Positions 9,263 through 35,024 of a stretch of 35,024 nt of DNA are shown one piece after another. Both the position numbers and the translations under genes were made by a program. Numbering within the stretch: the stretch's first letter is position 1; every line of letters begins with the position of its first letter. Source of the DNA: an uncultured Eggerthellaceae bacterium (GTDB taxonomy: Bacteria > Actinomycetota > Coriobacteriia > Coriobacteriales > Eggerthellaceae); contig CANOBU010000012.1 of NCBI GenBank assembly GCA_947564425.1, forward strand, positions 1-35,024, read 5' to 3'. Under the pieces are notes generated by a model. It was not told where the DNA came from, did no database searches, and worked only from the letters and a program-made list of their open reading frames with translations.

Positions 9263-11179
9263 CTACTTCCGTTCCTGCTTGCGCTGCTCCTGATGGCGCA
9301 GCACCGCTTCGAGCAGGTACTCGCCGGCCGCCTCGGCGCCGTGGCCGATATTGAAGATGAACCCGTCGCGCACCTCGCGGATGGCTTCGAACCATTCATC
9401 GCCGCCCGCCAGCATCTCGGCCACCCCGTCGCCCACGGCCCGGGCCTGCTCCGGCGCGAACGAACGGCCGATGCGGTTGCGCAGGCTTATATCGGTGGGC
9501 TCCAGGCTGAACTGCTGCCAATCGGGGTTGCCCACCTTCATGGGGGTATCCAGGAAAACGCAGGGCTTGCCGGTGGAGAACGAGAACTCGCAGGTGATGG
9601 ACGACCAATCGGTTATCAGGATATCGGAGGTCCAGATGGTCTCGTTCGATGAGAAATCGCGCTCGAAATACAGCTCGTCCTCGGATACATCGGCATAGCG
9701 GGCCAAAATGGCATCCCAGCGGGGCCGGTAGCGCTTGATGTATTCCGGGTGCGGCCGCACCACGACCTTCCACCCCCGATGCAGCAGGCCGGCCATGAGG
9801 TCGTCGAAGCACAGGTCCAGCAGGTTGTCCTCCTGCCACGAGGGCGCCACCAGCACCACCGGGCGGTCGTGGTCCTTGGCGGAGGCATCCAGCGCCTCGA
9901 AGGCGGCTATCTCCTCGTCCAGCAGGTCGTAGCCGGCCTCGATCAGGCGCTTTTCCGGCAGACCGTTCAAAGCCTCCTGCTCCCGCAGCTCGGCCACCTG
10001 GTGCGGCCCTACGCACAGCAGGGTGTCGTAGTGGTCGTAGGAATGGGGCAGCGCCGTCAGGGTGATGGATGTCATGTGGTGGAACATGAACACGTATTCG
10101 ACGTCATCCTTCACATAGGAGCGCTTCATGTAGTAGTTATCGAGGTCCTCCTGGGTGGTCACCACCACATCGGCATCCATCTTCATCATCAGGGTGATGC
10201 AGCGCTTCGGGCCTATGTAGTAGGGGCGGATGCGCGGCTGCTCGGCGGCGATGGCGAATATCTGGTCGTCGGGGTCGTTGGTGATATAGTGCACCAGCCC
10301 ATCGGAATGCTGCAGGTAGTAGCCTATGGCGCCCTTGAAGTACTTGTAGAAGCCGGAGCCCTCGGAATAGAACACCAGATGCTTGTCCGTTATGCTGAAG
10401 AACCGCTTGTAGTCGGCCTTTTCGCGGGCGGCCAGGGGATCGCGGCGATACCACTTCCGCTTGCGGTCGGCCTCCAGGGCGTCCAACTCGTCCAAGGCCA
10501 CCCGGCTGGCGGCCAAATCGGCGTAGTCGATGTACTTAGCGGGCCTCATGCATAGGTTGGCCAGGGCCTGCACGGCTATGGCCATGAGGTTCGAGCAGAT
10601 CCAGTAGAAGGCCATGCCGGCGGCCACGAACACGCCTAGGATGAGCGACAACCCGATAGACAGGCCGTTGGTCATGTTCTTCTCGGCCCGCGACTGCTCC
10701 CGTTGCAGCGGGTTTATCCGGTTCTGGGCGAAGCCCATAGCCACGGCGGAGAGACCGGCCAGAACGGGCATGACCCACGACAGGCCGCCGTCCTCGAAGG
10801 GCACGAGCCCCAGGAACTCGGTACCCGGGGTGCCCGAATCGGTGATGGAGTGGATCACATCCACCAAGCCGAACAGGATGACGATCTGGATCGCCAGGGG
10901 GATGAGGGACAGCATGGGATGGTAATGCTGCTGCTTGTACAGCTCGTTCTGCTTCTCGCCGATGGTCTCGCGGTCGCCGAAGTACTTCACCTTCAGGCGG
11001 TTGAGTTCCGGCATGACCCGCACCATGACGATGGAGTTCCATTGCACCCACAGCGACATGGGGAACAGGATGACCTTCGTGATCAGGGTGAACAGGAAGA
11101 TAGCCGCCCACCAGTTGCCGGTGAGGGCATAACAGGGGTCCACGATGAGCTGCAGGATATCCGCGATGGCTGCGAACAT
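9263..11179 (-). CDS. Fusion of YidC/Oxa1-type membrane insertase and CDP-glycerol glycerophosphotransferase-like domain
   Basis: A single 638-residue frame joins two families. Residues 1-215 are YidC/Oxa1-like: helix one (about 24-45) carries Lys35 in LITKVILFP, where Gram-positive YidC has its functional groove Arg. A charged hairpin VMPELNRLKVKYFGD...EKQNELYKQ follows, then helices near 90-110, 132-150 and 172-208. After a charged linker (220-258), residues 260-625 resemble the GT-B fold of CDP-glycerol:glycerophosphotransferases (TagF/TarF): RPHPEY (475-480) and SDILITDWSS (518-527) followed by GKPCVFLDTP are the family's donor-site motifs. The ATG at 11179 has AGGA eight bases upstream and lies two bases after the stop of the preceding flavoprotein gene. 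The insertase part could simply anchor the transferase or present it to the membrane; retained insertase activity is unproven. Confidence 0.85.
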   Translation of the reverse strand: MFAAIADILQLIVDPCYALTGNWWAAIFLFTLITKVILFPMSLWVQWNSIVMVRVMPELNRLKVKYFGDRETIGEKQNELYKQQHYHPMLSLIPLAIQIVILFGLVDVIHSITDSGTPGTEFLGLVPFEDGGLSWVMPVLAGLSAVAMGFAQNRINPLQREQSRAEKNMTNGLSIGLSLILGVFVAAGMAFYWICSNLMAIAVQALANLCMRPAKYIDYADLAASRVALDELDALEADRKRKWYRRDPLAAREKADYKRFFSITDKHLVFYSEGSGFYKYFKGAIGYYLQHSDGLVHYITNDPDDQIFAIAAEQPRIRPYYIGPKRCITLMMKMDADVVVTTQEDLDNYYMKRSYVKDDVEYVFMFHHMTSITLTALPHSYDHYDTLLCVGPHQVAELREQEALNGLPEKRLIEAGYDLLDEEIAAFEALDASAKDHDRPVVLVAPSWQEDNLLDLCFDDLMAGLLHRGWKVVVRPHPEYIKRYRPRWDAILARYADVSEDELYFERDFSSNETIWTSDILITDWSSITCEFSFSTGKPCVFLDTPMKVGNPDWQQFSLEPTDISLRNRIGRSFAPEQARAVGDGVAEMLAGGDEWFEAIREVRDGFIFNIGHGAEAAGEYLLEAVLRHQEQRKQERK

Positions 11180-11181
11180 GG

Positions 11182-12309
11182 CTACATCCTGCTCGGGCAC
11201 GGGATGCCCGCGAAGTTGCCGCATATACCGCAGCCGATGCACAGGCTGTCGTCCGGCGAGCCTGCCTGCCAGCGATCCGCCAGATAGGGCTCGCGGATGA
11301 GGGGCCGGGCCAACCCGATGGCGGCGATGCCGTCCTGGGCCAGATGGGCCCCGGCTATGCGAGGGCTGCGCCAACCGCCGGTCACTATCACGGGTATATC
11401 CAGCTCGCGGGCCATGCGGGCCCCGAAGGCACCGAAATAGGGCTGGCCGTCCGTCGCCTCCTTCGAAGCCCGGTGCCAATCGCCGCTGACCTCCAAGGCG
11501 CTGGCGCCGGCTTGCTGCGCCAAGCGCGCCGCAGCGGCGCTGTCATCCTGGGAAAGGCCCCCGGCGAGGCCCGCGGGGTCGTCGTAATCGTCGCAGCTGT
11601 TCAGCTTCACCAGCACCGGGTAATCGGGACCCGTGGCCTGCCGCGCCGCCTCGATGCAGCGGCACAGGGCCCGGGCGCGGTTCTCGATGGGGCCGCCGAA
11701 GGAATCGGTGCGCCGGTTGAAGCAGGGGCTGAGGAACTGCGAGAGGAGGTATCCGTGCGCACCATGGACCTCCACCCCGTCGAAGCCCCAGCGCTGCGCC
11801 CGCGCGGCCGCCCGGCCCAGGGCCGCAGCCACGGCATCGATATCGGCCTCCGACGCCGGACGGGGAACCACCGAGGTGACCGGGTTAACCACGGCGGAGG
11901 GGCCCAGCACATCGGCGGTGGGGGTGCCGTCGCAGGGGGTTTCGGATGCAGCCGGCAGCCAGCGGGGATCCCCGGCGACCAGCTTGCTCTTCGAGCCGCC
12001 GTAGACCAACTGCAGCACGATGCGCGCCCCCCGGCCGTGCACTTGGTCGACCATGCGCCGGTAAGCGGCGCCGAACTCGTCGGAGCAGGCGTTCAGGGAG
12101 CGCTCGGCAGCCTTCCCCTCTTGCATGAAGTAGGCGAACCCCGTGATGATGGTGCCCACCCCGCCGGCAGCCAGCTGACTGTAGCACTCCACCAGCGGAG
12201 CCGAGGGCTCTCCGTCGCGGGTGCACAGCGATTCCGCCGTGGCCGCCCGCACCAGGCGGTTGCGGGCCGCCATGCCCCCTATGGTCATGGGCTCGAACAG
12301 ATTGGCCAT
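11182..12309 (-). CDS. Old-yellow-enzyme-type NADH:flavin oxidoreductase with C-terminal cysteine cluster
   Basis: A 375-residue FMN-dependent (beta/alpha)8 barrel of the OYE family. LFEPMTIGGMAARNRLV opens the barrel; VEVHGAHGYLLSQFLSPCFNRR with NRRTDSFGGPIENRAR is the family hallmark; GGWRSP and GLARPLI bind the FMN phosphate. The last 25 residues (SLCIGCGICGNFAGIPCPSRM) hold four cysteines of the type that bind [4Fe-4S] in the larger 2,4-dienoyl-CoA reductase and BaiCD relatives, but the FAD/NAD domain that normally follows is absent. The ATG at 12309 (GGGGA five bases away) matches the family start, and a candidate -10 between it and the upstream ATG at 12366 supports it. Probably reduces an activated C=C bond; substrate unknown. 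Co-transcribed with the YidC fusion gene, two bases downstream. Confidence 0.88.
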   Translation of the reverse strand: MANLFEPMTIGGMAARNRLVRAATAESLCTRDGEPSAPLVECYSQLAAGGVGTIITGFAYFMQEGKAAERSLNACSDEFGAAYRRMVDQVHGRGARIVLQLVYGGSKSKLVAGDPRWLPAASETPCDGTPTADVLGPSAVVNPVTSVVPRPASEADIDAVAAALGRAAARAQRWGFDGVEVHGAHGYLLSQFLSPCFNRRTDSFGGPIENRARALCRCIEAARQATGPDYPVLVKLNSCDDYDDPAGLAGGLSQDDSAAAARLAQQAGASALEVSGDWHRASKEATDGQPYFGAFGARMARELDIPVIVTGGWRSPRIAGAHLAQDGIAAIGLARPLIREPYLADRWQAGSPDDSLCIGCGICGNFAGIPCPSRM

Positions 12310-12344
12310 GGGCCTCCCCTTAGAAACGATGGTATCGAACCCCA

Positions 12345-12350
12345 ATTGTA
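12345..12350 (-). promoter_or_regulatory. Candidate -10 element for the flavoprotein/YidC-fusion operon
   Basis: TACAAT on the minus strand, 36 bases before the ATG at 12309; the -35 region (TCTGCG, 17 bases further) is poor. If correct, translation cannot begin at the upstream ATG at 12366. Confidence 0.4.
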
Positions 12351-12483
12351 GCGGAATCTCGCCCATCCGCAGATATATTGGGGATTATCGGGCCTGCAGC
12401 CCCCGGATCCGGCAGGAGAACTTAGAATGGATACAGGAAAGCACTGATGATGGGGGGATGTTCGCCCCCTGCGAATGGAAGCC

Positions 12484-18324: not shown

Positions 18325-20541
18325 CTATTGGCGGGCATCGATGGTGCGGCCGGTCTCGCGCCAGTTATCCAGGTCCAGGGCATTGCCGTCGATCTCGTAT
18401 TCCCTCAGCTGGGTCTCGCTGAGGTCGGGCTCGCTGTCGGTGGTCAGGTAGCGGCGCACGCGGTCGCCGTCGATGGGTCCCAGCATGGAATAGCCGGGGA
18501 ATTCCTCCCGCTGGGCGTATTCGCTCCAGTCGAGCCCCAGAACATCGAGCACCGTGGCCTGCAGGTCCAGCTGGCTCACGGGCTTTTCGTCCACCACCAG
18601 GGGTTGCGCCGCCTGCTCGGCGGTCTCGGGCGGCTTCACGAACATGATGGGGTTGCTGGTGTCCTCGAGGGGTTCCTCGGTGATGGTCCAGTAGCCGTGG
18701 TCGGCCGTGACGATGATCGTGGCCTGGTCGTACAGGCCCAGGGCCTTCAGCTGCCGCAGGTACTCGCTCACGATGGCCAGCACCCCCCGCGACTGCCTGA
18801 ACACGTCCGACTCGTCCTGGCCCAGGTACGCGACGTTCTCGTCGTAGTTGAACGGATAATGCGACCCCAGCAGATGGATCATCCGGAACGCCCCCGCATA
18901 GTCGTCCTCGACCGAAAGCCCCTTCGATTGCAGCCGCTGGTAATAGCGGACATCGTCCATGACGTAGATGGTCTCCTCGGGAGCCGCCTGGGGGTCGTAC
19001 TGGGCGTAGGCGGCGTTCATCTGGTCGGTGTAGTACCAGAATGCCCATTTCAGAGCCCAGGGGACATCGCGGTACAGGGCCATCTGGTACAGCGAGTACA
19101 GGGTGCGCCCGTAGTCCATAGCGCTGGCGGGCAGCCCGTGCACATTGACCGTCTTGCCGGCGACGGCCGCGCGCTCGGATGCCGGGAGGTCCCCCAAGGT
19201 GAGGGAATCGGTGTAGAGGCCGATGGAATAGCCCGCCTGCTGGATCTGGTCCAAGAACGTGCCGCGGCTGTAGCGCTCGCGCACATAGGTCGAGAACGGC
19301 TCGTCGAAGGAGGGCATCTGACCGGTGAGCATCTGGGGCAATGCGAAGCGGGTGGGTATGAGGGACCCGGTGCAGTTCTCGTAGCTGGTGAAGCCGGTGA
19401 ACTCGTCCAGCAGCCCGGGGTCATCCTTCAGGATGCGCTTGAGGTAGGCGTCGTCGAACGTATCGAGGACGAACATGATGACATTGCCGCTGCCGTTCAC
19501 CGTATAGAGCTGCTCCTCGGTCACCACCCCCTGGGCCCGGGGTGCCGCCGCCGGGTCGTCGGATGCGGCACCCGATCCCGGCACCAGGAGCACCGCCGCC
19601 AGCGCGATGGCCTGCACCGCCGCGAGGCAGCAGGAACCCAGGACTGCGATGCCCTGGGCGCGGTGCATGCGATGGAGGCCGTACAGCACGAATCCCAGCA
19701 CGATAACGCCCCAGATAACCGCCGAGGCAACCTGCCAGGCCATGTAATCGCCCCAATGGATGGCAGCCCCGTCGGCTGCCGGCAGACCGCCGTTCAGGGC
19801 CAGGGCCTGCAGGTAGGCGCAGAAGCCCAGGGCGAACACCAGCGACACGAGCGCGCTGAAGGCCCGCCCCCGGAAAGCCGAGAGCACCAGGGCCAGGGCC
19901 AAGCCGATACCCGCATCGGGCAGGAGCGGCACCCACCAGATGTCGGACACGCCGTAGATGAGCGAATTCGCCGCACCGGCCACGATCTCGAGCGGCGCGG
20001 CATAGAAAACCGTGAACACGAGGAAGAAGGCGATAAGGGCGCCTATCGCCAACCGCATGCGCCAGGGGGGATTGTAGCCGCTCCCATCCAGGAAGCGGCG
20101 CTTCCGGCCCGCAGCGGCATCGGATGGCGGCACGCACGCCGGCACCGGCCCATCGGCGCCATCAACGTCGGACGCAGCCTCTGCGGGGGCGGCATCATCG
20201 GGAAGCGGGCCCTCGCCGGCCGCGCCTGATGCCTGTTCCGCGCAAGGAGCCCCGGGGTACACCCGATGCACCTCCGCTTCCCGCTGGCGGCGCCCCTCGG
20301 GGTCGATATCCAGCAGCCGCGCCAGGGCCCTGCGGCCCCGGCGCCAAGCCACGCCGAACACCGCCGAGAGGGCCACGGCCGCACCCGCCAGGGCCTGTAT
20401 GGTATAGGTCATGACCGACGGGTCGATGTAGGCATAGGCGGGCTGCGGACACGCCAGGGCAACCACCATGGCAGCCAACCCGAGGCCCAGGGCGTCATAG
20501 GCGCGCATCACCGGATGTTCCATGGATGACCGCAGGCTCAT
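18325..20541 (-). CDS. Membrane sulfatase / LTA-synthase-like phosphatase-superfamily protein
   Basis: 738 residues. An N-terminal helix ends in AYAYIDPS, then comes TYTIQALAGAAVALSAVFGVAWRRGRR (a short anchor seen in many such envelope proteins). A charged linker (85-160) is followed by helices at about 163-183, 208-245 and 270-322. The extracellular alkaline-phosphatase/sulfatase domain starts at NVIMFVLDTFDD (Asp360 as metal ligand). PTRFALPQMLTG likely supplies the nucleophile Thr397, HLLGSHYPFNY and TADHGYW provide the metal-binding His and Asp-His, and QLDLQATVLDVLG is a typical C-terminal segment. LtaS and phosphoethanolamine transferases share this fold. A role in transferring or removing phospho-glycerol-type groups is inferred. 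It starts six bases after the upstream lipoprotein gene, with AGGA four bases from the ATG at 20541. Confidence 0.85.
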   Translation of the reverse strand: MSLRSSMEHPVMRAYDALGLGLAAMVVALACPQPAYAYIDPSVMTYTIQALAGAAVALSAVFGVAWRRGRRALARLLDIDPEGRRQREAEVHRVYPGAPCAEQASGAAGEGPLPDDAAPAEAASDVDGADGPVPACVPPSDAAAGRKRRFLDGSGYNPPWRMRLAIGALIAFFLVFTVFYAAPLEIVAGAANSLIYGVSDIWWVPLLPDAGIGLALALVLSAFRGRAFSALVSLVFALGFCAYLQALALNGGLPAADGAAIHWGDYMAWQVASAVIWGVIVLGFVLYGLHRMHRAQGIAVLGSCCLAAVQAIALAAVLLVPGSGAASDDPAAAPRAQGVVTEEQLYTVNGSGNVIMFVLDTFDDAYLKRILKDDPGLLDEFTGFTSYENCTGSLIPTRFALPQMLTGQMPSFDEPFSTYVRERYSRGTFLDQIQQAGYSIGLYTDSLTLGDLPASERAAVAGKTVNVHGLPASAMDYGRTLYSLYQMALYRDVPWALKWAFWYYTDQMNAAYAQYDPQAAPEETIYVMDDVRYYQRLQSKGLSVEDDYAGAFRMIHLLGSHYPFNYDENVAYLGQDESDVFRQSRGVLAIVSEYLRQLKALGLYDQATIIVTADHGYWTITEEPLEDTSNPIMFVKPPETAEQAAQPLVVDEKPVSQLDLQATVLDVLGLDWSEYAQREEFPGYSMLGPIDGDRVRRYLTTDSEPDLSETQLREYEIDGNALDLDNWRETGRTIDARQ

Positions 20542-26420: not shown

Positions 26421-27221
26421 CTATAGCTTCTCGAGCGGATAATCGCCGACGTTCAGGCTGTCTTCCAATTCCACCGTCTGGGTGACGGGCTTGTACCCTT
26501 CGGCCTTGATATCCAGGGTGTAGCGGCCCGGCTCCAATCTGCGGAACCAGAAGTCGCCGAGGAAGTCCGTCTGCGTCGACATAACCGCACCCGTGGAAGA
26601 CGTAAGCGTCACCGTGGCGTTCTCGATGATGTCGTTGGGCACCGGATCCCACACCTCGCCGCTGATGAAGAGCTTCGGCCTGTTCAGATAGTAGACACGG
26701 GGCCCGAGTTTCGGGTCGCCCATGACCTCCGCTTCAGCGATCTCGCGTGCGAACTCCTCCTCTTCCCCGAAGCGCAGGGCGCCGGTGGTGCAGACATCCA
26801 CGCAATGCGGCAGCATCCCCTCATCCACCAAGTGGGCGCAACCGGTGCATTTCTGGGGAAGCTCCAGCTCGTCGTTCCAGTAGATCGCACCGTATGGGCA
26901 CGAATCCACAAGGGCGCGGTTTCCCTTGGCAGCCTCGGGATCGATGATGATCAAGCCGTCCTCCCGCCTGTAAACCGCCTCGGGAGCGGCCTCGATGCAG
27001 GGGGCGTTATCGCAATGGTTGCAGAAATGGGGCGTGTACTCTATGCGCACCTTGGGCGTCTGGCCATGGGTCTTCTCGACCATCTTGCACCAGAAATGGC
27101 CGGTATCGGGCTGGGGTGCGGCGATAGGGCTCCAATCGTTGCCCGCATGCTCGTCTTTGCAGGCAAGCTGGCACCCGTAGCAGCCGTTGCATTTAGCGGC
27201 ATCGAAAACGAATACTTTCAT
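26421..27221 (-). CDS. Pyrogallol hydroxytransferase-like small subunit (three [4Fe-4S], C-terminal Ig-like domain)
   Basis: 266 residues, close to the 274 of the Pelobacter acidigallici transhydroxylase beta subunit. Twelve candidate cluster ligands are visible: Cys11, 14, 17, 21, 67, 70, 75, 108, 125, 128, 140 and 144, exactly enough for three [4Fe-4S] clusters. The ligand expected at position 79 in four-cluster relatives is Ala, so one cluster is absent, as in the P. acidigallici enzyme. Residues 186-260 (FISGEVWDP ... TLTSSTGAV ... GDFWFRRLEPGRYTLDIKAEGY) form a Cna_B/transthyretin-like beta domain, also known from that enzyme. ATG 27221 is two bases after the large-subunit stop; its GAGGAGG lies inside the end of that gene, so the subunits are coupled. 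It mediates electron transfer or stabilises the Mo subunit in the cytoplasm. Confidence 0.9.
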   Translation of the reverse strand: MKVFVFDAAKCNGCYGCQLACKDEHAGNDWSPIAAPQPDTGHFWCKMVEKTHGQTPKVRIEYTPHFCNHCDNAPCIEAAPEAVYRREDGLIIIDPEAAKGNRALVDSCPYGAIYWNDELELPQKCTGCAHLVDEGMLPHCVDVCTTGALRFGEEEEFAREIAEAEVMGDPKLGPRVYYLNRPKLFISGEVWDPVPNDIIENATVTLTSSTGAVMSTQTDFLGDFWFRRLEPGRYTLDIKAEGYKPVTQTVELEDSLNVGDYPLEKL

Positions 27222-27223
27222 AT

Positions 27224-29821
27224 CTAGGCCTCCTCGACGATCCAATTACCGATATCGACGCCTTCGTCGGCGCTATAGGTGCGCGAGAACGCCTCGGGGT
27301 ACTGCTCGGCCAGCTGGAACACGTCCACTTTCTCGATGTTCACCAGGAATCCGGAGGTAACCTCTGCCGATGTGTTGATCGAGGCAACCTCGTTGGGGGC
27401 TATCAGGTTATTGGCGCCGCCGCGGTCGAATTCGCCGTTGACGATGGGATCGAGCCGCGCCCCATGGTCCTGGTACAGGATGCCGGGCATGATGCGCTCC
27501 GTCACATACACCCCGCCCAGCACTGCGCCGCGCTCGTTGTAGAGCTTCGCCACATCGCCATGCTGGAGCCCCAACCTCTCGGCATCGACGGGATTCACCC
27601 AAATGGGCTCGTAGGCATAGCCATCGGGGCCGATGACCTTGCATGTCTCGATCTCGCGGAACCAGGAGATGTCATCCATATTGGCATGGACGCGCCAACG
27701 CGGATGGTTGGACACCAGCAGGAAGGGGTATTCCTGCGCCCGCGGGTGGAAGAGGCTCTCCTTCAGGCGGCCATACGCCTTGTACTTCGGGTAAGGCGGC
27801 CTCTCGTCATCATCGGGAAAGGCCTCGGCGATGGCCTGGGAGTAGATCTCTATCTTTCCGGTGGGCGTTTCGAGCGGAGCCGCATCGGGATCTTTGCAGA
27901 ATGCCTCGAATCCGCGGGGGCCATCTTTCCAGCCGTCCTGGGTAGGAACGATGAAATAGCCCTTCTCCTTGAACTCCTCGAAGGAGATGCGCTCCCCGAT
28001 GCCGGAGCCGTCGAACCCTACCTTGATCCAGTCATCCACGCTGTTGCCTTTGGTGTACTCCTCGTAAAGGCCGAGCTTCTTGGCCACCTCGCACACGGCC
28101 TCCCAGTCGCTTTTCGCCTCGCCGCGGGGCTCGATGCACTGGGGTTCGATGTACATCATGTTGTAGTTGCCGTTCTGGCAATCGACGGCGATATCCTTTG
28201 TCTCGAACTTCGTGGAAATGGGCAGGATGATATCTGCCAGCAGACAATCGTTTTCCATCCAGGGGTGCTGAACCAAAACGAATTCGATGGAATTGTCGCG
28301 CAGGGCCTCGATGAACTTATTGCCCCCGTTCCAACAGGTGGTCCAGCAGGGACAATCGCTCCAGATCATATGGATCTGCTCGCCGGTCATGAAATTGGGG
28401 TACTGGTACTCGTTGAACTGGTCGACGCGCGGCCACCCGGCGATGCCCACCCCCATCCACGTAAGGGGGTTCTCCTTGGTGTAATGCCCCAGGATGGCAT
28501 CGGGCACGCGGGTCTTGGGAATGTGGCGCCAGCGAATATCGTAGATCTCGGGCTTGTTCCAGTTGAATCCTTGATAGGCGGCCGCCGGAGTCATATACAT
28601 CTCGCTGCGGGGATTGGGGCACATGTTGGGGTCGCCGTAAAGGCCCCACTCGATGAACTTCATCACATTGCGCCCCGGCTTCCCCAAGCCCTGCATGGCC
28701 ATAAGCAGGACCTCGAGCCGCCCCGGCTCGGTCGAGTAGGTCGAGCGAATGAGCGAACCGCCGTTGCAGTGGCCGATCGACACGTTATGCTTCGCCCAAT
28801 AGCGGGCCAAGGCCCGGATGGTGCGGGCGGGAACACCGCAGATCTCCTCGGCCCATTCGGGAGTCTTGGGAACACCGTCCTCGCGGCCGGTGATGTAATA
28901 TTCCTCCCAGTCGAACCCGACGCAATGGCTATCGACGTACTCCTTATCGTAGGAGTTCTCGGTAATCCACACGTAGGCGATGGCGAGCTGCAGGGCCGAA
29001 TCGGTATTGGGCCGCACGGGAATCCAGCGGTCGCAATGGACGGCACCGGAGTAATTCAGATCGGGCGATATGAAGATCTGCTTGATACCCAGCTCGGTCA
29101 GCCAGAAGCACCAACGGGAATTGATCTGGCCCAGCCAGCCCCAGGTGGTTGTCTCCACATCGCAACCCCAATGGAGCAGCATATCGGAATTCTGCGGGAT
29201 ATCCATCAACAGGTTGCCGATGATGCCCTGGCCATGGGAATCGCCGCCCCATACATGCTTGGCACCCCAGTACCACCCCTCCCAGGAGTCCGGATTGCGG
29301 GCCTGTAGGGTGAAGCCGCCCATCAGCGCCAGGAGCCCCATCTGGCAGCTGTGCGAGGCATGGATCACCTTGGTCTCGCCATGGCCGTCACCCTGGGCGA
29401 GGATGGACATGGGGCCGTATTCCTCATGCACGCGCTTTATCTCGGATGCGATGATGTCGGTGGCCTCGTCCCAGCTGATCCGCTCGTACTTGCTGATGCC
29501 GCGGGTCTCGGGGTGCCGCTCCCCATTCGGATCCCAATCGATGCGCTTCATGGGATAGGGGATGCGGTTGCGCGAATAGGCGCGCTTCTTGTAGATATAG
29601 GCGAAGGGCGGGATATCCGTCTTCGTGGCAGCCTTGAATTCCGAACCGCGGGCCTTGATGGTCCAGGGCTTGTAATAATCCGGCGAATAGGCGGTATCGA
29701 AGGGAAGCGGCCGGGTACGGACGATCTTCCCATCTTTCACGTCTACCACGGACGTCAGGGCACCCATGCCGAAACCGCCCATGGTAAGGCCCTTGATATA
29801 CGAGTTATCGCTTACTTTCAT
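27224..29821 (-). CDS. Pyrogallol hydroxytransferase-like molybdopterin large subunit
   Basis: 865 residues of the DMSO-reductase superfamily, nearest in plan to the P. acidigallici pyrogallol:phloroglucinol transhydroxylase alpha subunit (about 875). Like that protein it lacks an N-terminal cysteine cluster motif and has no Tat signal (MKVSDNSYIKGL), so it is cytoplasmic. GGDSHGQG (192-199) carries Asp194-Ser195, the likely equivalent of the Asp and Mo-ligand Ser of the Pelobacter enzyme. HWGCDVETTTWGW, PDLNYSGAVHCDRWIPVRPNTD and TPTGKIEIYSQ fit bis-MGD binding. The known enzyme moves a hydroxyl between polyhydroxybenzenes without net redox change; relatives could dehydroxylate. RBS AAGGAGGG is four bases before the ATG, which overlaps the upstream zinc-ribbon stop (ATGA). 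The actual substrate is unknown; pyrogallol-ring phenolics are the natural candidates. Confidence 0.9.
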   Translation of the reverse strand: MKVSDNSYIKGLTMGGFGMGALTSVVDVKDGKIVRTRPLPFDTAYSPDYYKPWTIKARGSEFKAATKTDIPPFAYIYKKRAYSRNRIPYPMKRIDWDPNGERHPETRGISKYERISWDEATDIIASEIKRVHEEYGPMSILAQGDGHGETKVIHASHSCQMGLLALMGGFTLQARNPDSWEGWYWGAKHVWGGDSHGQGIIGNLLMDIPQNSDMLLHWGCDVETTTWGWLGQINSRWCFWLTELGIKQIFISPDLNYSGAVHCDRWIPVRPNTDSALQLAIAYVWITENSYDKEYVDSHCVGFDWEEYYITGREDGVPKTPEWAEEICGVPARTIRALARYWAKHNVSIGHCNGGSLIRSTYSTEPGRLEVLLMAMQGLGKPGRNVMKFIEWGLYGDPNMCPNPRSEMYMTPAAAYQGFNWNKPEIYDIRWRHIPKTRVPDAILGHYTKENPLTWMGVGIAGWPRVDQFNEYQYPNFMTGEQIHMIWSDCPCWTTCWNGGNKFIEALRDNSIEFVLVQHPWMENDCLLADIILPISTKFETKDIAVDCQNGNYNMMYIEPQCIEPRGEAKSDWEAVCEVAKKLGLYEEYTKGNSVDDWIKVGFDGSGIGERISFEEFKEKGYFIVPTQDGWKDGPRGFEAFCKDPDAAPLETPTGKIEIYSQAIAEAFPDDDERPPYPKYKAYGRLKESLFHPRAQEYPFLLVSNHPRWRVHANMDDISWFREIETCKVIGPDGYAYEPIWVNPVDAERLGLQHGDVAKLYNERGAVLGGVYVTERIMPGILYQDHGARLDPIVNGEFDRGGANNLIAPNEVASINTSAEVTSGFLVNIEKVDVFQLAEQYPEAFSRTYSADEGVDIGNWIVEEA

Positions 29822-30048
29822 TTACCCTCCTTGCTCATCGAAGTGACAGCAGGTTTTCCGGTGCGTTCCGCAGACTTCCCCGTCCTTTCCTCCCAAGCCC
29901 TTCTCGACGCCTCTTTGATCTCGACTGTGAATCGCAGGCCGCATTCAAGGCAGTCATCGCGCACAACCAGGTTCTTGGCGCCGCACGAAGGGCAATACAG
30001 GTATTTCTGCTTGCAGTTCTCGCAATCCATAAGGCACGGGTAGCACAC
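29818..30048 (-). CDS. Zinc-ribbon mini-protein coupled to the transhydroxylase
   Basis: 76 residues with four CxxC pairs (Cys2/5, 9/12, 19/22, 33/36), enough for two zinc sites of the ribbon or knuckle type, followed by a charged helical tail (IKEASRRAWEERTGK). Start GTG 30048 with GGGGGAGGAG six bases upstream; the alternative ATG at 30030 has no RBS and would lose the first CxxC. Its stop overlaps the large-subunit ATG by four bases, so translation is tightly coupled. Function unknown. The position suggests a helper for assembly of the molybdoenzyme or its cofactor, or regulation; a second zinc-ribbon mini-protein stands before the other Mo enzyme. Confidence 0.75.
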   Translation of the reverse strand: MCYPCLMDCENCKQKYLYCPSCGAKNLVVRDDCLECGLRFTVEIKEASRRAWEERTGKSAERTGKPAVTSMSKEGK

Positions 30049-30105
30049 GACGGGCTCCTCCCCCGGAAGCAGCGGATGGTCCGAATCTATCGGGATGGGG
30101 CGCTA

Positions 30106-30447
30106 TCACGCCCCGTCCTTGACCGAGAAAATCACCATCTTCGGCTTGTTCACCCGTGCAGCCAGCTCTTCCACCGTGCCATATTCGATAGCAAGGCTCT
30201 GGCAGTGATGGACGCAGGTAGGCAGCTTGCCGGCAGCGACCCGTTCGGCACAGAGGTCGCAGAGTTCCGTCGGTGCGGGGATGTAGGTGTATTCCCAGTG
30301 GTCCGGGGACAGCTCCCGCGGGCCTATCTGGAACAGCTGAATGCCATCGAACCCTTCTTGGAAGCCATGATCGACCTTACAGGCCACTTCGCAGGCATGG
30401 CATCCATCGCAGTAATCATAATCGATCAGCAAACCGTATTGAGTCAT
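30106..30447 (-). CDS. Two-cluster [4Fe-4S] electron-transfer subunit
   Basis: 113 residues. Cys13, 16, 19, 23 and Cys63, 66, 78, 82 form two ferredoxin-type sets (CDGCHACEVAC and CDLCx11CVHHC), a reduced version of the DmsB-type subunit. No signal or membrane helix. ATG 30447 with AAGGGAG six bases upstream; 28 bases after the stop of the Mo enzyme gene, so it is its probable electron donor. It is a paralogue of the partial gene at the right edge: both align without gaps from the first residues through the cysteine motifs. Confidence 0.9.
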   Translation of the reverse strand: MTQYGLLIDYDYCDGCHACEVACKVDHGFQEGFDGIQLFQIGPRELSPDHWEYTYIPAPTELCDLCAERVAAGKLPTCVHHCQSLAIEYGTVEELAARVNKPKMVIFSVKDGA

Positions 30448-30475
30448 AGCGCACTCCCTTCGATGCCATCGCGGC

Positions 30476-32737
30476 TCAGTCTTCGACTTTTGATACATTG
30501 CAAAGGCGGCACTTATAGGACGAGCCCCAACCGGTGGGCCCCACATCGCCCATGCGCAACAGGCAGCCAGCCTGCGAATCGAAGGTGCCGAAGAACGAAG
30601 GCGCCGCAGCCTCGCGTTCGGGGAACCACCAACCATGCTCGGCATTCACCACGCCCTTGAGCATGCCGGGATGGATATGCAGCTTCTGCTTGATCTTGCC
30701 CGTTTCGTTCTCGAGGTAGACCCAATCGCCTTCTTCCAGGCCCAAGGATGCAGCGTCCTCGGGGTTCATCTCACAAAGGGGCCACGGATGGTACTCGCGC
30801 ATCGTGGGAAGGTTCCGATGCTCGGAGTGGAAGAATTCATAGGACCGCTGGCCAGTGGTGAGAACGAAGGGATATTTCTCGGCCAGCTCCGGCGTACTCA
30901 CCGGCGACTCGTTGGGCTCCTTGTAATAAGGCGCCGCATCCAGGCCCACCGCTTGGAAGATCGTGGACATAAGTTCAATCTTACCCGTCGGCGTGTTGAA
31001 ACCGGGTTTCCCATCGGAGCGCAGCTTGCCCGTCTTGTACTTCTCGTACTCGAACGGGAAGTAGTACCACACATCGTGCTTCAGGTCCTCGAAGCTTCCC
31101 TCGTAGTCGACGCTGGAGAGGTTCTCCATGAATGCCGCCCGCATCTCCTCGGTGTTGGCCCAGGGGAATTTCTCCGGAGCCACCTTGCGGCCCACCTCCA
31201 ACATGATCGTCTCATCGCACTTGGCTTCGCCTAAAGGCTCGACCACCTTGGTGATGGCACGGAAAGGCGTCCACCAGGCCCTCATGGAATCGCGCTCGGG
31301 GCTCATGGCCACGGGCAGCACCAGGTCGGCGCATGCCACTGCCGTCGGCGTCATGTACAGATCGGCTACCACCACGAAATCGAGGCTGTTCAGCGCCTTC
31401 AGCCAGCGCTTGGAATCAGCCGCGCAATTGGAGAGCGGATTCGAGCTTTGGATCCACACCATCTTTATGGGATACGGGTCGCCTTCCTCGATGGCCTGCA
31501 GCACCTTCTCGGGCATGGCGAACGGGGCATAGCCCATAGACCGCAGCGGATACTCGCCGTCACAGCCCAGCTTCGCCTTCTGGGATTCGGGATCCATCCT
31601 CTCCAGAAGCGACATGCGAATATCGTTCTGGATGAAACCATCTACGAAGAATATGTTCGATCCCGGAATGTCCACATTGCCCGTAAGCGCGATGATGGCC
31701 TGGATTGCATGGGAGGCCGAAACACCGTGGGTCTGCTGATCGAGCGGAAGGCCCCACTGAACCGCCAGAGGCTTCGCATGACCGAGGATCTCGGCCGCCT
31801 TCACGATCTTCCAAGCCGGAACGCAGGAGATCTCCTCTACCCTCTCGGGCGTGTATTCCGCAGCAGCTTCCCGCAGCCCCTCGAGACCGTAGACCCATTC
31901 ATCCGTGAATTCCTCGTCGTACCATTTGTTCTCGATCATCTGGCTTACGATGCCCAACGCCACAGCGCCATCGGTGCCGGGGCGCAAGCGCAGGACCAGC
32001 TCGGCCTTAGCCGCAATCCACGTGATGCGGGGATCGACCACGATGAGCTTGCTTCCCCGTTTCATGACATCGATTATCCAATGCCCGTAGAATCCATCGG
32101 AATTGCTGACCAGGGGATTGCAACCCCAGATGAGCACGTATTCGGGGATCCGGTAGCGGGGATCATCGAAGCGAGCCTCCAGGGCCTGGCCCATATCGGC
32201 TATCCAAGCAGTGCCCATTACCACATTCATGGCCATGAGGCGCGGCCCATAGCAGCAATCGCCGCTGAGGGTGCCCTGGCCGGTATTGGGTGTATCGAAG
32301 GCGAGGTTGCCCAGGGACGATACGGGCCATGTGGCATTGCGTCCCGTACCCTGGAAAGCGGCTATGGCCTTGCCGCCGTACTCCCCCATGATCCTCTTCG
32401 CCTGCTCATCGATGATATCGAGGGCCTCATCCCAGCTGATGCGCTCCCATTTGTTCTCGCCGCGCTCACCTGCGCGCTTCATTGGGTAGGTCAGGCGGTC
32501 CTCATGGTAGATCGCCTCCAGCATATCCAGGCAGCGCATGCACAGCCGGCCGTTGTTCACAGGGCAATTGGGATCGCCTTCGATCTTCTCGACCTTCCCG
32601 TCCTTGGTATAGAAGAGCACGCCGCAACCCTGATGGCAGCCGGGACCGGACCATTGGCTGGTGCGCGTGACGGTATACTCGCCTTCCTGCCATTGCCAAA
32701 GCTTGTCTTTATATACCTCTTGGTTTATCTCTCGCAT
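30476..32737 (-). CDS. Cytoplasmic bis-MGD molybdoenzyme, acetylene hydratase / catechol dehydroxylase-like
   Basis: 753 residues of the DMSO-reductase superfamily. The cluster region GPGCHQGCGVLFYTKDGKVEKIEGDPNCP...GRLCMRC gives Cys34, 38, 66 and 69; the first Cys of the usual CxxCxxxC is Gly31. WERISWDEALDII, LIWGCNPLVSNSDG and VVDPRITWIAAKAELVLRLRPGTDGA bind the two MGDs. Cys161 or Cys162 in SGDCCYGPR stands where acetylene hydratase has its Mo-ligand Cys. FNTPTGKIELMS and the C-terminal GSSYKCRLCNVSKVED complete the pattern. No Tat signal: cytoplasmic. RBS GAGAGGAGG five bases before the ATG. Family members include gut catechol dehydroxylases with a small Fe-S partner and MFS carrier, as seen here. 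Reductive dehydroxylation of a phenol is the leading hypothesis; hydration or transhydroxylation cannot be excluded. Confidence 0.88.
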   Translation of the reverse strand: MREINQEVYKDKLWQWQEGEYTVTRTSQWSGPGCHQGCGVLFYTKDGKVEKIEGDPNCPVNNGRLCMRCLDMLEAIYHEDRLTYPMKRAGERGENKWERISWDEALDIIDEQAKRIMGEYGGKAIAAFQGTGRNATWPVSSLGNLAFDTPNTGQGTLSGDCCYGPRLMAMNVVMGTAWIADMGQALEARFDDPRYRIPEYVLIWGCNPLVSNSDGFYGHWIIDVMKRGSKLIVVDPRITWIAAKAELVLRLRPGTDGAVALGIVSQMIENKWYDEEFTDEWVYGLEGLREAAAEYTPERVEEISCVPAWKIVKAAEILGHAKPLAVQWGLPLDQQTHGVSASHAIQAIIALTGNVDIPGSNIFFVDGFIQNDIRMSLLERMDPESQKAKLGCDGEYPLRSMGYAPFAMPEKVLQAIEEGDPYPIKMVWIQSSNPLSNCAADSKRWLKALNSLDFVVVADLYMTPTAVACADLVLPVAMSPERDSMRAWWTPFRAITKVVEPLGEAKCDETIMLEVGRKVAPEKFPWANTEEMRAAFMENLSSVDYEGSFEDLKHDVWYYFPFEYEKYKTGKLRSDGKPGFNTPTGKIELMSTIFQAVGLDAAPYYKEPNESPVSTPELAEKYPFVLTTGQRSYEFFHSEHRNLPTMREYHPWPLCEMNPEDAASLGLEEGDWVYLENETGKIKQKLHIHPGMLKGVVNAEHGWWFPEREAAAPSFFGTFDSQAGCLLRMGDVGPTGWGSSYKCRLCNVSKVED

Positions 32738-32787
32738 CGAAGCCTCCTCTCGCTGATTCCTCCCTCAACATCCTGTATCCCGCAGCA

Positions 32788-33024
32788 CTACATAGGGGCC
32801 TTCGGAGGCATGGGGGCCTTCGGGGCGGCAGGTGCGCTGGGTGCTGCCGGCGCAGCGGGCGCACCGGGAGCCGGAGAGGGGAAAGCTGCCGGATCGGGAG
32901 CATCGGGCTTCTCGTTGAAATGACCGCAATTGGTGCAGTTGATGCCCGCCAGGGTCTCCTCCCCGCATTCCTCGCACTTCACCTTCACAAACATATCCCC
33001 CACATCAGCCGGTCTAAAACACAT
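32788..33024 (-). CDS. Zinc-ribbon mini-protein with Pro/Ala-rich tail
   Basis: 78 residues. Cys17/20 (CEEC) and Cys30/33 (CTNC) form one zinc ribbon; from residue 40 the chain is almost wholly Pro and Ala (PAAPSAPAAPKAPMPPKAPM), an unstructured tail. ATG 33024 with AGGTGG six bases upstream; an internal Met at residue 11 is a less likely start. It precedes the Mo enzyme gene by 50 bases and follows a terminator, so it seems to be the first gene of the main catabolic transcript. Unknown function; compare the zinc-ribbon gene at 29818-30048. Confidence 0.7.
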   Translation of the reverse strand: MCFRPADVGDMFVKVKCEECGEETLAGINCTNCGHFNEKPDAPDPAAFPSPAPGAPAAPAAPSAPAAPKAPMPPKAPM

Positions 33025-33100
33025 ACAGAACCACCTTTCATCTTTTGCTGAACTGACTGCTTCACGCCTTGGACAAAAGCAGCCCTTGAAGAACCTGGAT

Positions 33101-33140
33101 TTGCAGAAAAGGGCCGATCGCATTCCAACCCGATCGGGCC
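33101..33140 (-). terminator. Factor-independent terminator after the MFS gene
   Basis: On the minus strand a ten-pair GC stem with one mismatch (33131-33140 with 33111-33120) and ten-base loop is followed directly by TTTT (33107-33110). A second stem (33142-33149 with 33173-33180) lies just before it. It separates the transporter gene (ending 33252) from the zinc-ribbon/Mo enzyme transcript, implying a promoter between about 33025 and 33100; none with a good -10 is evident. Confidence 0.72.
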
Positions 33141-33251
33141 TGGGAGCCGCCTTTCGGCCCGATGCCGTCGAACGGCTCCCCAACCAACCCCCGCGGCTTG
33201 CAGAGTACGCGAGCAGGTATAACGGACCCTGGAGCCTAGGGGAATGAATCG

Positions 33252-34481
33252 TTATTCGGACTTAGCTTCGAACTTGCTCTTTTTGACGAAGAATACGATG
33301 GCCACGATAATGGCCATAACCGCATAGAGTACGCCGGAGCAGATGATCGGGAACACAACCGAGTCGGCTCCACCGAGGAAGATTGCATTGCATGCCTTCA
33401 TGTAATAGGTGGCAAGGAACGTGCCCAGATTGAACATGGCGGTTGTGATGCCGATCATGGAAGCCATCTGCGCAGGGGTGACCGATGCGCCGACGAGCGA
33501 GTAGACCGCCGGGCGAATCTGCACGAAGTTGAATGCCGCGAAGAACAGACCGAATGCCAGCATCGGCGCAGAGCTCGCATAAGCCACGATGAACATGGAT
33601 ACAGCCATGAGGATATAGCCGGCGGGAACGATCCACTTACCCATCTTCTTGAAGGTGAAGCCGAAGACCAAACCGGCCACCGCACCGCCGATGGTATAAC
33701 AGGAAGTCACGATGCCCGCGAAGGCCGAACCGCCGAAATTGCGCTCTGCCATGATGGTGGACGTGCCGGCCAGGATGGGCATCACGAACATCATGCCGAG
33801 GAACAGCAGGATGATGAAGGCCCAAGCGCTACCGGGAATCTTCACCTTCTCCTTCTTCTCGGGCTTCTCGAGCGGCAGCTTGGGAATGCCGGCAAGGGAG
33901 AGGATCAAGCCCAGGGCGGCGATGAGGTAGGCATAGTAGCAATACTGCGGCTGGATGGCCGCCAGCGCGCCGCCGAGGATCTGCATGATGGTGCCGCCGA
34001 CCGATTGGATCGTCTGGCCCCAGCCCAGCACAACACCCTGCTTGGCATCCTGGTACAGGCGCAGCACCAGAGCATTGCCGAGCGGCCAGAGCATGCCCAT
34101 GCCCAGGCCAAAACCGGCGCGCATCACCAGCGTCGCATAGAAGTCCTGCATGTTCACGATTGCCGGGACCACACCGAATCCGATGTAGAAGGCGAATGAC
34201 AGCACCGAAGTCGCGCGCCAGGACAGGTACTTCCCGGCAATTGCGCCCGTAACCAGGCACCCGGCGATGGCCGTAAGGCTCGGCAGCGTCGAGATGAGCG
34301 TGATGGTGGTAGCGGGTATATCGCTCCATAGGCCCGTCTTCATCGCATTCAGGGCCGGAGTAACGGCTCCGTTACCCGATAGGGCAATGAATACGAACAG
34401 GCATGCCAGGAGCGTGAGAATAGAGCGCCCACCGAAGCCGCTCTGCTTCTGAGGTTCTTGCGTTTCCCTGATCTCGTCCAT
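33252..34481 (-). CDS. MFS transporter, paralogue of the carrier at the other end of the island
   Basis: 409 residues, twelve predicted helices with a basic central loop (LEKPEKKEKVKIP). FGLGMGMLWPLGNALVLRLY and the C-terminal LATYYMKACNAIFLGG match the second carrier nearly residue for residue. A hydrophilic N-terminal tail of about 25 residues (MDEIRETQEPQKQSGFGG) is absent from that paralogue. ATG 34481 with AAGGAGG four bases upstream is clear; an earlier in-frame ATG lacks a site. It lies between a partial [4Fe-4S] gene (199 bases upstream, with a hairpin and an inverted repeat in the gap) and a terminator. Probable phenolic or organic-acid carrier for the Mo enzymes; substrate unknown. 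Confidence 0.9.
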   Translation of the reverse strand: MDEIRETQEPQKQSGFGGRSILTLLACLFVFIALSGNGAVTPALNAMKTGLWSDIPATTITLISTLPSLTAIAGCLVTGAIAGKYLSWRATSVLSFAFYIGFGVVPAIVNMQDFYATLVMRAGFGLGMGMLWPLGNALVLRLYQDAKQGVVLGWGQTIQSVGGTIMQILGGALAAIQPQYCYYAYLIAALGLILSLAGIPKLPLEKPEKKEKVKIPGSAWAFIILLFLGMMFVMPILAGTSTIMAERNFGGSAFAGIVTSCYTIGGAVAGLVFGFTFKKMGKWIVPAGYILMAVSMFIVAYASSAPMLAFGLFFAAFNFVQIRPAVYSLVGASVTPAQMASMIGITTAMFNLGTFLATYYMKACNAIFLGGADSVVFPIICSGVLYAVMAIIVAIVFFVKKSKFEAKSE

Positions 34482-34512
34482 GATCCCTCCTTGTTTTGGG
34501 TTCCAATTCTCA

Positions 34513-34549
34513 CATTTCTCTAACTCCCTGCTCATCGGCTAGAGAAATG
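34513..34549. promoter_or_regulatory. Inverted repeat, possible operator before the MFS gene
   Basis: CATTTCTCTA (34513-34522) and TAGAGAAATG (34540-34549) are exact inverted copies separated by 17 bases, 32-68 bases before the ATG at 34481. Arms about two and a half helical turns apart (27 bases centre to centre) suit a dimeric or tetrameric regulator. It is AT-rich in a GC-rich setting and has no T-run, so an operator is likelier than a terminator. Confidence 0.5.
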
Positions 34550-34622
34550 CAAATGCCTTCGATACGGGCGGCAACGCCCATTTCTCGCTTCAATTGCCGG
34601 GGCTCTGGATTGGGGGGGGTGA

Positions 34623-34659
34623 ATGCTGCAGGCCGGCCCCGGCGGAGAGCCTGCAGCAT
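34623..34659 (-). terminator. Hairpin after the right-edge [4Fe-4S] gene
   Basis: An exact 11-bp stem ATGCTGCAGGC (34623-34633 with 34649-34659) and 15-base loop, 20 bases after the stop. On the minus strand it is followed by TTCACCCCCCCC rather than a T-run, so termination is uncertain. Confidence 0.4.
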
Positions 34660-34679
34660 GGACTACGCGAAAGACGGAG

Positions 34680-35024
34680 CTAATCCTTATCGCCCGGCGC
34701 ATAGAGCACGCATTTGGGGATGAAGGCCATCTTCTTCGACAGCTCCTCCACATCGCCGTATTCCATCACCTTGGATTGGCAGTTGTGAACGCAGGCGGGG
34801 AGCTTCCCCTCTTCCAAGCGTTCGATGCACATATCGCAGAGGTCAGTCGGGGCCGGCAGATAGAAGAAGTCGTATCCTCCATCGGGCTTCTTCGCAGGCC
34901 CGTATTCGAACACCGTGATGCCGAACTCGCCCTTCTGGAAATCATGCTCGCGTTTGCAAGCCACCTCGCAGGCATGGCATCCGGTGCAGAAATCGTACTG
35001 GATGATAAGACCGAGCCTATCGAT
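34680..35024 (-). CDS. [4Fe-4S] electron-transfer subunit, start beyond the right edge
   Basis: 114 residues are visible, running off the window on their N-terminal side. FCTGCHACEVAC and CDMCx11CVHNC give the same eight cysteines and spacing as the protein at 30106-30447. Aligning the two suggests that at most a few N-terminal residues are missing. The C-terminus ends AFIPKCVLYAPGDKD. By analogy, the gene for its molybdenum partner should lie just beyond the right edge, upstream on the minus strand. It is followed by a hairpin and then the MFS gene, so the module order (Mo enzyme, Fe-S subunit, carrier) appears to be duplicated. Confidence 0.88.
   Translation of the reverse strand: MDRLGLIIQYDFCTGCHACEVACKREHDFQKGEFGITVFEYGPAKKPDGGYDFFYLPAPTDLCDMCIERLEEGKLPACVHNCQSKVMEYGDVEELSKKMAFIPKCVLYAPGDKD

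Follow-up and report, generated by a model that had tools for sequence, protein, structure and literature searches.

The fused gene and its partner in the window

The window, that is, the whole stretch of 35,024 nucleotides that was analysed, carries on its minus strand a gene in which a membrane domain of the YidC type is joined to a transferase. This gene A forms an unbroken frame from the ATG at 11179 to the stop at 9263 (9263..11179, 638 amino acids). Its Y domain (residues 1-222; 10514..11179, minus strand) is a five-TM Oxa1/YidC core with a C1 hairpin, and its G domain (residues 255-628; 9296..10417, minus strand) is a TagF/TarL-like GT-B transferase. The first-pass annotation had read a single frame with a YidC-like region and a GT-B domain here, and this is borne out by the open frame, Pfam, an AF2 model, Foldseek and the homologues.

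Both halves exceed their Pfam cut-offs: PF02096 (60KD_IMP) covers residues 23-207 with 99.5 bits (cut-off 35) and PF04464 (Glyphos_transf) residues 434-542 with 30.0 bits (cut-off 22.1). The NCBIfam model for the YidC C-terminal domain, TIGR03592, is reached as well (86.1 bits, cut-off 84.3), as are other YidC models, and a profile of the Y domain finds YidC in the PDB with an E value of 3e-20. The second half has no NCBIfam match, and G does not reach the TagF and TarL models of that collection. In the AF2 model of the full chain (57 homologues; mean pLDDT 91.0, pTM 0.72, no residue below 50) the N-terminal YidC fold is recovered, and Foldseek against the PDB places this half on E. coli YidC (6al2) over 215 columns with an rmsd of 3.9 Å. 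The C-terminal half retrieves TagF (3l7k, E value 2.4e-11), TarL (8va1) and 8qoy, a TagF-like capsule multienzyme. Gene A is confirmed as a genuine fusion of a YidC-type membrane domain and a teichoic-acid-type transferase.

A profile of G matches TarL (E value 5.5e-4) with the HP and DxSS motifs aligned and the first catalytic histidine of the pair outside the alignment. The RPHP motif of G (residues 475-478; 9746..9757, minus strand) corresponds to the MHP of TarL, with R475 and H477 present in 57 of 57 rows. The TDWS motif (residues 523-526; 9602..9613, minus strand), the phosphate-binding loop of PF04464, is aligned to SDYSS of TarL, and D524 and S526 are equally invariant (57/57). His367, within FHHMTS (10079..10081, minus strand), is a candidate for the first catalytic histidine; it is found in 57/57 rows and has no sequence alignment to TagF or TarL.

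Two bases upstream of gene A lies a flavoprotein gene of the old-yellow-enzyme family (PF00724; window 11182-12366), which had been put forward as a partner. It has no counterpart in about 80 fusion loci, where its homology cluster is a singleton, and a role as conserved partner of gene A is ruled out. At the other end of the window (26421-35024), molybdopterin-oxidoreductase-like genes (865 and 753 amino acids) and cysteine-rich, ferredoxin-like small subunits can be recognized by eye; molybdopterin oxidoreductases with ferredoxin-like subunits are typical of anaerobic respiration.

Gene B (18325..20541, minus strand; 738 amino acids) is the window paralogue of a family of P-S proteins, recognized by PF00884 (33 bits, cut-off 25), by its AF2 model, by Foldseek and by adjacency. 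Its P domain (20326..20454, minus strand) consists of AYAYIDPSVMTYTIQALAG... and a membrane helix, with a motif common to clostridial P proteins of 61-121 amino acids and to 40+ B proteins; the consensus reads AYVDPSVMTYTIQALAGVAVAxxAVxGVxxRRxRK...IDEN. Coriobacterial P forms the N-terminus of a protein of ~700 amino acids that has S as its C-terminal half. In Clostridia, P is free (61-121 residues) and S is also free (about 550-700 residues), at the same locus. Examples of this one-helix family, with a near-invariant YIDPSVMTY...IDEN, lie at L145:10992-11174 and L153:12949-13206 (within L142-L181). The one clostridial P protein that was scanned has no Pfam match above cut-off, and P is probably a new family of small membrane proteins; the predicted position of its YIDPS motif is on the outside.

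The S domain of gene B (18328..19524, minus strand) is LtaS/PEtN-transferase-like, a putatively extracytoplasmic member of the alkaline-phosphatase superfamily. By sequence it is nearest to S. aureus LtaS (profile E value 4e-11); the AF2 model (pLDDT 84) has PbgA/YejM, LtaS and MCR-1 as nearest folds. The LtaS equivalog model NF053595 is not reached (20.5 bits, cut-off 970). Asp614-His615 (18697..18702, minus strand), invariant in alignments A2 and A6, is aligned to the metal-ligand pair in the GDH of LtaS, and H561 to its substrate-site histidine. Thr397 (19351..19353, minus strand) is a candidate nucleophile, invariant in A2 and at least 90% conserved in A6, and not aligned to LtaS. Like LtaS, EptA/MCR and YejM/PbgA (PF00884), S combines five TM helices with an alkaline-phosphatase-like domain that follows them, and shares the metal pair and the LtaS histidine. 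What sets it apart from these enzymes is the P helix, which stands before it or accompanies it as a partner, and its link to Y-G through gene coupling or fusion.

Distribution and architecture of the module

The Y-G fusion is present in 35 of the 100 relative genomes searched; when one genome per species was scanned, relatives turned up in at least 564 places. The best 80 of these matches are nearly all end to end, at about 41-75% identity. They come from Coriobacteriales (Gordonibacter, Slackia, Adlercreutzia, Eggerthella, Olsenella, Atopobium, Lancefieldella and others) and from Clostridia (Oscillospiraceae, Lachnospiraceae, Christensenellaceae, Ruminococcus, Eubacterium). The module is common in gut bacteria. 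Among 149 genomes drawn evenly from the phylum, by comparison, Y-G is limited to two, that of the window and one more from the same order. The window's genome holds a second Y-G copy, on contig C22. A tblastn search of plasmids gave no record spanning most of the fusion; the rows displayed match the YidC domain only. For some high-GC loci, gene calling used codon usage trained per locus. In a tree of 57 Y-G rows, a fully supported split separates Actinomycetota from all others, which are Bacillota and one MAG named Planctomycetia. On the contig filed under the latter name (L142), the Y-G gene is a typical one and falls within the Bacillota clade; the contig is probably mis-binned.

This distribution decides whether two separate genes could have been merged by an assembly or sequencing error. 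The window's genome is a draft of 116 contigs, which would leave room for such an error. However, the same architecture, sought in other genomes as the first-pass annotation had suggested, is found in dozens of independent ones, finished ones included, and a sequencing error is excluded for this reason. The probability of an artefact is negligible, and for gene A this reading is already refuted.

A P-bearing gene lies directly downstream of the Y-G gene in 49 of the best 80 loci, with a gap of -41 to +206 bases, and about half of these gene pairs overlap. Among loci with full flanks, P and S are both present in 22 of 23 in Coriobacteria; in Clostridia, P is found in 22/23 and S in 15/23, and several clostridial Y-G loci have no S gene within 9 kb. 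Gene B is 7 kb away from gene A in the window, while relatives usually have B directly downstream of A. The genome's second copy of the module has Y-G and P-S side by side. Beside that copy (L066:1469-5692) lie two choline-kinase-like genes and the genes for an EamA transporter and the ethanolamine permease EutH, which points to either ethanolamine or choline as the head group. At L067:1691-8238, L125 and L130, up to three tandem P-S genes follow one Y-G gene, as if one maker served several extracellular transferases.

In some genomes, all four parts are joined. Single Y-G-P-S chains of 1334-1386 amino acids occur in Candidatus Aphodovivens (L111), Coriobacteriales OH1046 (L138) and Gordonibacter An230 (L162), and such chains are also found in two further genera (L069, L073), in finished or nearly finished assemblies. 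Since the first three each nest among unfused relatives in the 57-row tree, the full fusion arose at least three times. Furthermore, at least four genera of relatives have a sister system with swapped partners, Y-S (about 930 amino acids) beside P-G (about 430 amino acids). Its S matches the S of gene B (profile E value 4e-19), and the P helix does so weakly (E value 1e-5). The loci in question (L086:8631-12821, L088:6855-13619 with two Y-S genes in tandem, L089:1574-5549, L087, L097 and L100) encode Y with a sulfatase-fold domain and, next to it, a TagF-like GT-B joined to a short protein with a YIDPGTGSM helix. Taken together, recurrent fusion, adjacency and exchange of partners are a strong argument for joint action of Y, G, P and S in a single complex. 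The first-pass annotation had seen the fusion itself correctly; it had missed the P-S family (window 18325-20541), the second copy of the module and the four-part chains.

The groove of Y and the donor of G

A stand-alone yidC exists in relatives of the window's genome, and it adjoins rpmH in 20 of the 20 genomes that carry both it and Y-G. The Y-G gene lies at no rpmH-type housekeeping locus; its neighbours are P, S, and lic- or pnt-type genes. The window's own genome yielded no stand-alone yidC, but it is only 86% complete, so that this result is no evidence of a true absence. The Y of a fusion and the stand-alone YidC of the same genome are about 24% identical. Over the 20 genomes, mean pairwise identity is 74% for Y and 48% for stand-alone YidC, Y being higher in 190 of 190 genome pairs. 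With separate alignments the value for stand-alone YidC is 53% and Y is higher in 185/190 pairs. The G domain, at 61%, is also below Y.

The groove has a residue pattern of its own. Lys35 (11075..11077, minus strand) had been singled out as occupying the usual Arg position, and indeed 105 of the 107 Y-G rows have Lys there, while all 30 stand-alone YidC proteins have Arg and all five Y-S rows have Asn. Neither Y-G nor stand-alone YidC varies at Q98. N48 and N197 are fixed in Y-G, while stand-alone YidC has Ser or Thr there, rarely Ala or Gly. Within the membrane, the polar residues fixed in Y are K35, Q98, S178 and N197. With YidC/Oxa1 insertases such as SpoIIIJ and E. coli YidC (PF02096), Y shares the fold, the five-TM core, the C1 hairpin, a basic groove position and the groove Gln; it differs from them in that they have no fused transferase, an Arg in the groove, rpmH as neighbour and lower conservation. 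By these comparisons, Y is a distinct subfamily that retains the groove and is not the housekeeping insertase.

The donor of G can be approached through the genes that accompany it. Co-occurrence was assessed by Fisher tests in 100 relatives, 35 carriers and 65 non-carriers, with shared ancestry uncorrected. Under these terms, a gene of the choline-kinase family is present in 32 of the 35 carriers and 27 of the 65 non-carriers (p=6e-7); for the more complete genomes, likewise uncorrected for ancestry, the counts are 23/24 and 21/50 (p=7e-6). Of the 40 Coriobacterial fusion loci, only 8 have such a gene at a distance of 12 kb or less. LicD is not significantly associated with Y-G (19/35 carriers, 30/65 non-carriers, p=0.53). 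Coriobacterial neighbours of Y-G include LicC-LicA fusions with an N-terminal helix-turn-helix, EamA-type transporters and LicD. The LicC-LicA fusions (L107:13138-14847, L111:13364-15145 and others), in which the N-terminal part is a winged helix, combine choline kinase, cytidylyltransferase and a possible regulator.

Elsewhere, the neighbours point to phosphonates. At 12 of 39 non-Coriobacterial loci, the phosphoenolpyruvate mutase PepM (402 bits, fused to cytidylyltransferase domains) and/or the phosphonopyruvate decarboxylase Ppd (458 bits) are near Y-G, usually together with an iron alcohol dehydrogenase, and CTP transferase genes also lie beside Y-G in clostridial loci. Judged by sequence, these neighbours are a pathway for a CMP-activated phosphonate. 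In Gordonibacter An230, phosphonate genes directly precede the four-part chain. Among the 100 Coriobacterial relatives the association of PepM is not significant (4/35 against 2/65, p=0.18), and the phosphonate link therefore rests on the Clostridia.

The first-pass annotation had named a glycerophosphotransferase-like chemistry, which does not fit these genomes well. TagD, the CDP-glycerol enzyme, is absent from the window's genome, and in the carriers it is found in 3/35 at cut-off and 10/35 at 70 bits or more, with no association with Y-G. CDP-glycerol is disfavoured as donor. Because choline and phosphonate genes are associated with Y-G and TagD is not, the common denominator seems to be a CTP-activated phospho- or phosphono-head group rather than CDP-glycerol. 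G therefore resembles TagF and TarL (PF04464) in its GT-B fold and its HP and DxSS motifs, but differs from them in being fused to a membrane domain and in keeping company with choline kinase or phosphonate genes, not with CDP-glycerol synthesis. The module shares with the Lic (phosphocholine) and Pnt (phosphonyl tailoring) systems the logic of CTP-dependent activation and neighbouring genes. LicD belongs to another family (PF04991) and has no fused insertase fold; in Y-G-P-S, transfer would take another route, one that spans the membrane.

A putative route across the membrane

A scheme in which each of the four parts has a role leads, at its simplest, from G through Y and P to S; the substrate of G, the crossing, the transfer and the order of steps are what we infer. 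By analogy with solved YidC structures, Y would have its N-terminus outside and five helices, with G inside. S is expected outside from the five helices before it, as in the solved LtaS and MCR structures. G, as a cytoplasmic GT-B transferase of the CDP-alcohol type, would take a CMP-activated head group, supplied either as CDP-choline by LicA/LicC-type genes or as a CMP-activated phosphonate by PepM/Ppd/PntC-type genes. On the inner side of the membrane, it would load this group onto an acceptor that is a lipid or is linked to one. The groove of Y, together with P, could then let the polar head cross, as ordinary insertases do when acting as scramblases, and S would move the phospho- or phosphono-head group to a surface polymer by means of its Thr/metal centre. 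That Y-G-P-S is such a "make, pass, transfer" envelope machine for CMP-activated head groups is plausible, at slightly less than an even chance, and the module probably decorates the cell surface with head groups of the choline or phosphonate type. Against the mechanism stand the presence of LicD, a possible user of the same CDP-choline, in 19 of the 35 carriers, the small share of Coriobacterial fusion loci with choline genes nearby, the clostridial loci with no S gene close to Y-G, and the 7 kb between genes A and B in the window.

The most attractive idea is that the groove of Y handles a lipid-linked molecule. Lipid scrambling in liposomes has been shown for YidC, Oxa1 and other insertases, and takes place via the insertion groove according to the authors' data (PMC10491306). 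As this activity is general, it does not single out the Y domain. Y has the same fold and groove as these Oxa1-family scramblases (PMC10491306) but would, putatively, be dedicated to the lipid-linked product of its own fused enzyme. We hold only tentatively that an insertase fold was recruited as a translocation element in this way, with a head-group lipid made inside, passed through the groove and transferred outside.

Other roles can be imagined for the membrane domain. Y could be a mere anchor or scaffold that keeps a peripheral G beside P and S, with nothing passing through the groove. TagF-type enzymes are indeed peripheral and require a membrane, and the Y-S proteins have lost the groove charge, so that the fold can be kept without it. 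However, Y evolves more slowly than both G and the housekeeping YidC, which is not as expected of a passive anchor, since an anchor should drift, and its intramembrane polar residues are fixed. In the swapped system, moreover, P anchors G, so that G needs no Y for this purpose, and an anchor alone is rather doubtful. Alternatively, Y might be a working insertase for one client, P-S or P, fused to G in order to couple the assembly of the complex. It has the full YidC fold with hairpin and positively charged groove, and P, tiny and with one helix, is the type of protein that YidC inserts. Yet in the four-part chains the client would be part of the same polypeptide, the Y-S/P-G swap retains Y without the groove charge, and relatives possess a housekeeping YidC. 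We regard a dedicated client insertase as very unlikely.

The chemistry can also be read in another manner, with G as a glycerol- or ribitol-phosphate transferase and S as an LtaS-type polymerase that build one polymer, to which choline is added later by LicD. The PF04464 match, the position of TagF and TarL as the nearest solved folds sharing motifs with G, the proximity of S to LtaS by sequence and the LicD genes near several loci are in keeping with a teichoic-acid synthase of this kind. Nevertheless, G reaches no NCBIfam TagF or TarL model, and the distribution of TagD speaks against it as far as the supply of CDP-glycerol is concerned, so that it seems unlikely. The preferred reading remains the envelope machine for CMP-activated head groups.

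The Y-G-P-S module is real and conserved, a new combination of known domain types with a putative function, and apparently undescribed: in the open-access literature, no description was found of YidC with a glycerophosphotransferase, a sulfatase, teichoic acid or a fused glycosyltransferase. YidC-family proteins have been studied as protein insertases, and we know of no physiological use assigned to the recently shown lipid scrambling by this family. Here, a widespread family ties an insertase fold, by fusion and operon, to phospho-head-group enzymes, under stronger selection than the housekeeping insertase. There is a fair chance that such a role of the fold is new in principle, and the module makes the movement of lipid-linked products by it directly testable.

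The module may also bear on phosphonates. Rice et al. showed the activation of aminoethylphosphonate by CTP, including in Lancefieldella (Atopobium) rimae ATCC 49626, and regarded the phosphonyl-tailoring steps after CMP activation as unknown (PMC6697681). This very strain is a carrier of the module (L136). Y-G-P-S is a candidate for the phosphonyl-tailoring transferase or translocation step (Rice et al. 2019). If this is true, the machine would be the missing step of transfer and crossing in bacterial phosphonate and phosphocholine tailoring, and it is on such transfer steps that the surface chemistry of gut Coriobacteria and Clostridia depends.
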